This document shows, piece by piece, positions 7,398 to 50,994 of a DNA stretch of 64,000 nucleotides. The notes below the pieces were generated by a model. It saw only the letters and a list, made by a program, of their open reading frames with translations, was not told where the DNA came from and did not search any database. The position numbers and the translations under genes were made by a program. Numbering within the stretch: the stretch's first letter is position 1; the number at the start of each line of letters is the position of its first letter. Source of the DNA: Selenomonas sp. oral taxon 920 (GTDB lineage: Bacteria > Bacillota > Negativicutes > Selenomonadales > Selenomonadaceae); the NCBI RefSeq assembly GCF_001717585.1, contig NZ_CP017042.1, forward strand, positions 347,501-411,500, read 5' to 3'.

Positions 7398-7410
7398 TGT
7401 GTATTTTGTC

Positions 7411-7484
7411 ATGCATACACTACGCAGACGCTTAGCTGCGTTTTCCTGCTTGTTCCACTAGGGCTTGCTTAGGCGTACTGCATT
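7411..7484. repeat. Hairpin repeat, short copy (relative of 50789-50957)
   Basis: The ends can pair (ATGCA/TGCAT and TACGC/GCGTA). A 23-base block at 7448-7470, containing GTTCCACTAGGGCTTGC, matches the reverse complement of 50802-50824 with one difference. It sits between the scfA terminator and the scfB ribosome-binding site. It looks like a shortened member of a dispersed hairpin family. Confidence 0.6.
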
Positions 7485-7511
7485 TCCAAGAGTGTTTACG
7501 AAGGAGAAGAA

Positions 7512-8988: not shown

Positions 8989-9064
8989 AGGGGTATCGCC
9001 AAGTTGGTAAGGCACGGGATTCTGAATCCCGCATGCGTTGGTTCGAGTCCAGCTACCCCTGCCA
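8989..9064 (+). tRNA. tRNA-Gln (anticodon CTG)
   Basis: Acceptor stem AGGGGTA/TACCCCT, D-arm, anticodon stem CGGGA/TCCCG with loop TTCTGAA, T-arm with GGTTCGAGTCC, discriminator G and an encoded CCA (9062-9064). The body GGGGTATCGCCAAG is characteristic of tRNA-Gln. Confidence 0.95.
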
Positions 9065-13242: not shown

Positions 13243-14045
13243 TATTTCACTTTGAAGCCGTATTTCTCAAAGACTTTCTTCGCAGCGTCCGTCTGGAGGA
13301 ACGCGAGGAAATCCTTTGCTTCGTTCATGTTCTTCGCATCCTTGAGGACGGCGGCGGGGTAGACGATAGGTTTATGTGTATCGGCAGGAGCAACGGCGGC
13401 GACCTTTACCTTATCCGAGATGGCGGCATCGGTTGCGTAGACAACGCCGCAGTCCGCATCGCCCGTCTCGACCCACGCGAGCACTTGACGGACATCCGAG
13501 CCGTAGACGGCGCGCGCTTTGACATCATCGAGGATGCCGAGCTTTGTAAAGACTTCCTCACTGTACTGTCCGACGGGTACGCCCTTCGGTTCACCGAGCG
13601 CGATGTGTGCGACCTGCGGGTCAAGCACTGCCTTGAAGTCGGGGAGGTTCAGCTTGCTGTCCTTCGCCGTAATCAGCACCACGTCGTTGATGAGCAGATC
13701 GACGCGCGTGCCGTCCGCTAGGAGTTTCTTCTCGTCGAGTGCATTCATCTGTTTCTGTGCAGCGGAGACAAAGACATCGGCGGCGCCGCCGTTCTCGATC
13801 GCCTGCTGGAGTGCACCGCTGCTGCCGAAGTTGAAGACGAGCTTCGTATTTCCGTGCTCCTTCTCGTACATTCCGCCAAGTTCCTTCATCGCGTCTGTGA
13901 GGCTCGCCGCCGCCGAGACCTGCAGCTCGATGGGACCCTCCTTCGGCGTGTCCATCTTGTTTGCACTGTCGCCGCCGCCCACGCAGCCAGCGGTGAAGAG
14001 TGCCATGGCGGTGAGACCTGCCGTAAGTAAGTTCCTAAGTTTCAT
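13242..14045 (-). CDS. modA: Molybdate-binding lipoprotein
   Basis: 267 residues. Signal peptide with lipobox LFTAGC, so the mature protein is lipid-anchored through Cys21. SAAASLTDAMKELGGMYE and FNFGSSGALQQAIENG are the anion-binding segments of ModA, and the MNALDEKKL block fits too. It delivers molybdate to ModBC. Its leader region contains a structured RNA candidate. Confidence 0.93.
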   Translation of the reverse strand: MKLRNLLTAGLTAMALFTAGCVGGGDSANKMDTPKEGPIELQVSAAASLTDAMKELGGMYEKEHGNTKLVFNFGSSGALQQAIENGGAADVFVSAAQKQMNALDEKKLLADGTRVDLLINDVVLITAKDSKLNLPDFKAVLDPQVAHIALGEPKGVPVGQYSEEVFTKLGILDDVKARAVYGSDVRQVLAWVETGDADCGVVYATDAAISDKVKVAAVAPADTHKPIVYPAAVLKDAKNMNEAKDFLAFLQTDAAKKVFEKYGFKVK

Positions 14046-14049
14046 GGTA

Positions 14050-14192
14050 GTATTCTCCTTTACAAAATAGAGTAGGCACGACCGTTTCCAAGTCGTACCC
14101 CGTGACGGAATCCGTCAGGCAAGGCGTCGTAGCAAATTTGCCTTAGATAATCCTTGCTCGGAGTGTGTGTTGGAAAAGCTGACCTTTCCCCG
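14050..14192 (-). ncRNA. Candidate molybdenum-cofactor (Moco) riboswitch upstream of modA
   Basis: The 149 bases between moaC and modA fold well on the minus strand. Visible elements are GGAAA/TTTTCC near the moaC stop, the block CACTCCGAGC, TGACGG-ATT-CCGTCA, and an 8-bp stem GGTACGAC/GTCGTGCC capped by a GGAAAC loop with a GNRA (GAAA) tetraloop. Location between moaC and modABC is where Moco riboswitches occur. Assignment to RF01055 rests on context and memory of its layout, not on a covariance search. Confidence 0.5.
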
Positions 14193-50760: not shown

Positions 50761-50788
50761 GTTATAGATCGTATGTGGAGTTGTCGCG

Positions 50789-50957
50789 ATGCAGTGCTCC
50801 AAAGCAAACCCTAGTGGAACAAGCGGAGCAAAGGGCACGTTCTGCCCCCTACGGATTTCTTTCGTTCAAGCGAAGCGCGTTTAAGAAGTCCGCAGGTATT
50901 TAGGCAGATAAGTGCCCGACCGCTTGTGTAACGAGGCGTTTGCGTGGAGCACGCAGG
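50789..50957. repeat. Rod-like structured element (about 160 nt)
   Basis: Seven nested stems pair in strict order: GTGCTCC/GGAGCAC (50794, 50946), GCAAAC/GTTTGC (50804, 50938), ACAAGCGG/CCGCTTGT (50819, 50920), GGGCAC/GTGCCC (50833, 50912), TCTGCC/GGCAGA (50841, 50903), CGGATTTCTT/AAGAAGTCCG (50852, 50883) and TTCG/CGAA (50861, 50871). A part is repeated, inverted, at 7448-7470. It may be a non-coding RNA or a hairpin-type mobile repeat; no family recognised. Confidence 0.7.
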
Positions 50958-50994
50958 TGACACCTTATATTTTTATCACGAAAGGAGGGAATCC

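Follow-up and report, generated by a model that had tools for sequence, protein, structure and literature searches.

We analysed a 64,000-nucleotide stretch of the genome of Selenomonas sp. oral taxon 920 (contig NZ_CP017042.1, positions 347,501 to 411,500; from here on referred to as the window), with the focus on the gap between rnhA and mlaE, which holds a single long hairpin that we call the rod. An earlier note on this DNA had described nested inverted-repeat blocks in the gap and had judged chance nesting unlikely. The blocks are real and reach slightly further than was claimed: when positions 50780-50970 were folded, 66 base pairs formed within 181 nt, with pairing that starts at 50782-50787 with 50957-50962 and continues inward as far as an apical loop near 50873-50877. 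The minimum free energy (MFE) of the rod is -93.2 kcal/mol, compared with -57.1 +/- 4.2 for dinucleotide shuffles (z = -8.56), and none of the 200 shuffles folded as well. The reverse strand has a nearly equal fold (-86.3, z = -7.9). The rod is 165 nt long, or ~240 nt once the ISL3-like ends found on some copies (see below) are included. Its parts, together with a second, short copy in the window, are as follows.

50779-50963 (G000:C1:398279-398463): covariance-model match of the window copy, 202.5 bits, E 1.1e-59, itself a training member of the model
50782-50962, + strand: full-length rod (long hairpin) repeat in the MFE structure, with core 50790-50955 and copy-specific foot TGTC (50782-50785)/GACA (50959-50962)
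50782-50801, + strand: 5' side of the foot helices in the MFE structure, partner 50945-50962; the sequence is copy-specific, yet complementary in other copies
50807-50823, + strand: hyperconserved motif AACCCTAGTGGA-CAAG, in part unpaired, and invariant or almost so across sets of 35 and 92 copies
50833-50846, + strand: 5' side of the most variable and most strongly covarying helices, partner 50903-50917; at a single pair, both sides changed in up to 19 of 35 copies
50852-50892, + strand: apical helix and conserved apex TTTCGTTCAAGCGAAGCGCGTTTAAG, common to copies in other genera
50893-50911, + strand: 3' internal-loop segment GGTATTTAGGC-AGA-TAAG, conserved columns, facing a shorter 5' side
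50920-50962, + strand: 3' arm with conserved loop GTAAC and the 3' foot, from the MFE structure and conserved columns
about 7404-7493, - strand: short copy, outer stem only, covariance-model match of 41 bits, E 1.8e-9

The short copy accounts for a further claim, that a 23-base piece of the element recurs inverted at 7448-7470 within a shorter hairpin: AACCCTAGTGGAACAAG, at 50807-50823 on the + strand, recurs with one mismatch at 7449-7465 on the - strand (0.00 occurrences expected by chance, none in shuffles), and the shorter hairpin is the short copy itself. Within the window, the motif at 50807-50823 is present only in the rod and in this short copy. Of the open reading frames (ORFs) listed, those touching the rod are one that lies antisense over rnhA and one that extends mlaE upstream; none makes the rod look coding, and the earlier note likewise had seen no coding frame across it. 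A coding sequence was rejected as the identity of the rod because no coding frame was recognised. Comparison of the rod with Rfam returned no family, either at the gathering score or at a relaxed threshold.

Distribution of the rod family

Copies were sought by blastn and with two covariance models, R1, built from 35 oral copies, and R2, built solely from the other genera G022, G026, and G028. The own genome of the window gave 22 blastn matches and 25 matches to R1, and congeners gave R1 matches of ~62 (G006) and ~79 (G002), these R1 counts being approximate, since the number of candidates scored was limited and a few weak rows only mirror a strong match on its opposite strand. No rod was found by R1 or R2 in the near-complete genomes G003 and G013 of the same genus, which makes this pair useful for finding a gene that accompanies rods. 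By blastn, the rod family appeared confined to one genus among the 45 tested; R1 also found rods in six further genera of the same bacterial family, and R2, which recovered the oral Selenomonas rods without having been trained on them, gave matches in 51 of the 121 genomes examined, spread over 13 of 30 genera of the family, frequently with at least 25 per genome. Ordinary similarity searching misses the rod family because the stem sequence is largely free, and what persists is the shape and the unpaired patches. Outside the family, R2 gave only weak matches (E 1e-6 to 1e-9), which may be chance hairpins. Plasmids, phages, and viral contigs, as covered by blastn and an exact pattern, contained no rod match, and no description of the repeat was found in the open-licence full texts of the literature. 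Among named relatives, the syntenic region is carried mostly by oral Selenomonas and Centipeda.

That the rod is nothing but a chance hairpin or an ordinary terminator between rnhA and mlaE is a prospect we regard as negligible: its intergenic position alone fits such an origin, and the fold (z = -8.6) and the homologous copies throughout the genome and the genus contradict it. The chance hairpin was rejected on the fold z-score and the genome-wide copies.

We also noted that divergent (-)(+) pairs of rods, a few hundred nt apart, are frequent in G022, G034, G028, G129, and G113 (e.g. at loci L278, L302, and L313), and that in G129 their spacing is nearly constant.

Covariation, unpaired patches, and strand

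Among the 35 oral copies, both sides had changed in 23 of 49 pairs, and double-change cells numbered 136, compared with 40.7 +/- 5.0 in column shuffles and 3-27 in a control in which the partners were slid by 1-3 columns. Column shuffles ignore the relatedness of the copies, and the covariation is repeated in other genera with unrelated stems (188 compared with 51 shuffled cells in G022; 287 compared with 86 in G034). Covarying helices are a criterion by which structured RNAs are recognised, and the rod has them. The earlier note had named multiple intergenic copies with covarying stems as support for the element, and the lack of a second full-length copy, of covariation, and of a transcript signal as a sign against it; many intergenic full-length copies and covariation were found, through blastn, the covariance model, and the covariation count.

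The rods of G022 and G034 are near-perfect hairpins of ~220-270 nt (-86 to -183 kcal/mol for the folded segments), and the unpaired patches keep the same order across genera, the clearest being the apex TCGTTCAAGCGAAGCGCGTTTAA and GCGTNAAGAA facing TTTAGC. In 92 oral copies, conservation was 0.91 in unpaired columns compared with 0.84 in paired ones. The average is reversed in G022 and G034 (0.61-0.63 unpaired, 0.73-0.77 paired), where variable flanks were counted as unpaired; since the folded segments include these flanks, it is the named patches that carry the claim of conserved unpaired patches in these two genera.

Covariation of this kind may be unselected. Template switching between the arms of a quasi-palindrome during replication would let the stems of each copy drift together, and PMC8604942 reports that inverted-repeat arms are homogenised in this way. 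The feet of the copies, which are copy-specific and yet complementary (self-complementarity of 10.3 compared with 5.6 between copies, also seen in copies without ISL3 ends), and the near-perfect stems of ~80-87 bp in other genera, with G.T about as frequent as A.C, are what such a process would leave. It would also be expected to make unpaired patches pair up or drift; instead, both their conservation and their order are maintained across genera, and orthologous rods often exceed their flanks in conservation. We consider an unselected origin of the covariation possible rather than probable, and it is compatible with the mobile DNA hairpin favoured below.

The second alternative offered by the covariation and the conserved loops is a structured RNA, either a small RNA present in many copies or an mRNA element acting in cis, in which the fold of the transcript is selected and the loops bind a protein or ligand. 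The position of the copies suits it: 57 of 65 lie between co-directional genes compared with 40 of 79 in a small baseline set of gaps. Their orientation relative to the flanking genes does not, being even (26 and 31), and these gene-orientation numbers are approximate because the simple codon-usage scorer used for gene calling got mlaE itself wrong. Oral copies show more G.T than A.C on the element's own strand, as an RNA selected on that strand would, but do so for either gene direction (45:15 and 58:17), so that the excess is independent of the mRNA strand. A strand-neutral count of G.T:A.C gave 112:65 in G002 and no such excess in G022 (34:36) and G034 (45:48), which represent the two other genera richest in copies. 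The excess was considered as proof of an RNA on the element strand and is weakened as such by the equal strand-neutral counts in the other genera. It is also concentrated largely in a few columns, and this column-bound excess probably reflects shared ancestry. Further, copies without ISL3 ends showed no common promoter-like flank, and Rfam, as noted above, had no match; the frequent conservation of resident rods beyond their coding flanks (described below) would again suit an RNA. The simplest reading of the pair counts would be a constraint that acts on complementarity in the DNA, the wobble pairs of the oral lineage being ancestral. Because copies occur in both orientations and two other genera show G.T no more often than A.C, both being rare, a DNA-level hairpin is favoured over a strand-specific RNA, which we think unlikely. 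Thus, where the earlier note had left the choice between a structured RNA and a dispersed hairpin repeat, the repeat stands, with many copies, and the RNA has lost ground on orientation, mismatch counts, and Rfam.

Transposon-like carriers and possible turnover of sites

In G006, and in a few copies elsewhere, the rod is the core of a ~240-nt miniature inverted-repeat transposable element (MITE) with ends GGCTCTTTGTCATATGTTACGGA and TCCGTAACATTTATCATAGAACC. The ends and the 8-bp length of the target duplication are ISL3-like. In ten MITE-form copies, the flanking 8-mers matched at 6.2 of 8 positions compared with 2.5 between copies (at least 6 in eight of the ten), and a perfect 8-bp target duplication was present in 6 of 13 MITE-form copies. 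Of 14 genomes of the genus, 6 encode ISL3 transposases (PF01610), and at three ISL3 loci (in G006, G002, and G012) one end of the element matches the MITE end with 77-89% identity over 26-27 nt; the second end of these three elements was searched for and not found. Among 71 flank pairs of G006 and G002 copies, 18 scored z > 4 for ISL3-like ends, and the remainder were centred near zero. The idea that copies without ISL3 ends are decayed MITEs was rejected because their flanks score at background. Copy L013 of the own genome bears ISL3-like ends, and at the locus of the window's short copy (7404-7493) a shared-locus comparison revealed a full-length MITE-form copy in G002 (L216).

A different arrangement was seen in G129 and G113, from another genus, in which two divergent rods lie inside units of 569-705 nt with different terminal inverted repeats, AAATTGCAGTTTGTGGG; no autonomous element with an end of this type was found among the matches listed in G129. 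By this comparison of sequences, the carriers of the rod are of more than one kind. Movement of a REP-like hairpin by a Y1 transposase (RAYT, IS200/IS605) would explain high-copy intergenic palindromes that mostly lack a target duplication. We regard it as very improbable, as PF01797 had no match in the own genome (G000) and did match in control genomes, the rod is much longer than REPs, and a subset of copies has ISL3-type ends with 8-bp duplications.

No clean empty site for the window copy was found at rnhA-mlaE in the relatives compared. S. infelix has no rod there, has also lost neighbouring bases, and carries the palindrome TGTCGCGACA in place, so that neither insertion nor loss can be fixed for the window copy. 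In the same gap, G002 and S. flueggei have rods oriented opposite to the window copy, that of S. flueggei being short, and several other relatives have none. Absent, reversed, and short rods among relatives indicate that the gap either is hit repeatedly or often loses its rods.

Rod divergence at about ten shared sites is 0.5-4%, compared with 4-19% in the mostly coding flanks; at L003, for example, the rod shows one difference from that of G002, and the flanks are 90 and 95% identical. This suggests that resident copies may be under purifying selection. At a roughly equal number of shared sites, the rods are strongly diverged yet still paired, which suggests that replacement or conversion may have occurred.

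Several rods are interrupted or mosaic. A second repeat, GGGAAGCACTGATAAATTCAG...TTTATCAGCGATTCCC, present at several loci in the genus, was seen at L104 (G002), L108, and L109, and in L104 it is inserted within the rod at CCCTAG. In the own genome, L011, L012, and L014 form a mosaic subfamily with the same foreign segment, gggaaaacgtcccaagaacac...gttgaccgctcg, at one point of the 5' arm, and L015/L019 and L016 have rods broken at the same internal point by a common sequence, cggtttatctccttgatagg... Further, at the syntenic gaps L025, L027, L107, and L111, one species has a rod, and others have other GC-rich hairpin repeats (e.g. CCCCCGT...ACGGGGG).

Nature of the element and its relation to known repeats

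We conclude that the rod is probably (at about 0.72) a copy of a non-coding, dispersed, family-wide, MITE-like non-autonomous mobile DNA hairpin repeat, in which the folded shape is conserved. Several observations weigh against this. Recognisable mobile ends are present in only a quarter of the copies examined and are absent from the window copy (z = 0.0); copies without ISL3 ends show no target duplication over background; a PF01610 search found no ISL3 transposase in the window's own genome; and the rods at the ten or so low-divergence shared sites are more conserved than would be expected of a decaying parasite. The relevant form of such a repeat would be a DNA hairpin or cruciform, whose conserved unpaired patches may be read by a protein, either a transposase or a host factor. 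The matching of the arms could be kept by selection on shape, by arm-to-arm copying in palindromes, or by both, and a rod that is co-transcribed might, by analogy with other bacterial hairpin repeats, act on its operon.

The rod belongs to a known kind of element, the bacterial small interspersed hairpin repeat (BOX, Correia, ERIC; PMC3049150, PMC10969869); it stands out for its near-free stem sequence, its unpaired patches conserved across genera, and its different carriers. Like BOX, RUP, and SPRITE of Streptococcus pneumoniae, for which transposase-like ends have been proposed and which are described as old insertions with slow turnover that are likely to affect co-transcribed genes, it is a small, many-copy, highly base-paired intergenic interspersed repeat (PMC3049150). 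It differs from these, by their description, in stems that are almost free between copies, in unpaired patches whose conservation extends across genera, and in the dissimilar ends of its carriers. Correia/NEMIS and ERIC are likewise MITE-like hairpins in operons; RNase III processes Correia-containing transcripts, and ERIC affects transcripts (PMC10969869, PMC3049150). Correia elements have conserved terminal repeats, whereas the rod has a foot that varies from copy to copy. ISL3-family insertion sequences (IS) and MITEs derived from IS ends are matched by the oral subset with GGCTCTTTGTCA-type ends and 8-bp duplications, and congeners hold ISL3 transposases, but the rod itself is no IS end, and most copies, including that of the window, lack such ends. 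With REP/BIME and their RAYTs (PMC2817692) it shares the character of a high-copy extragenic palindrome, but its own genome is without a Y1 transposase, the hairpin is far longer, and the mobile subset has 8-bp duplications.

Elsewhere in the window, which starts inside a 23S rRNA gene, Rfam identified the following features.

1-1659: 23S rRNA gene
2075-2191: 5S rRNA
8989-9061: tRNA
14039-14175, - strand: Moco (molybdenum/tungsten cofactor) riboswitch, 69 bits

Bacterial hairpin repeats are usually defined by sequence; the rod persists as a shape and a few unpaired patches in at least 13 genera. We tentatively raise the idea, which we do not hold to be likely, that rods are family-wide DNA elements recognised by structure, as the ordered unpaired patches, the near-free stems, the differing carriers, and some sites constrained beyond the neighbouring genes might indicate. 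If this were true, a dedicated cruciform- or hairpin-reading protein would be implied in these bacteria. The rod family is also a natural data set for telling selection on structure from arm-to-arm copying of palindromes, and many operons of oral Selenomonas hold a 160-nt rod between their genes.
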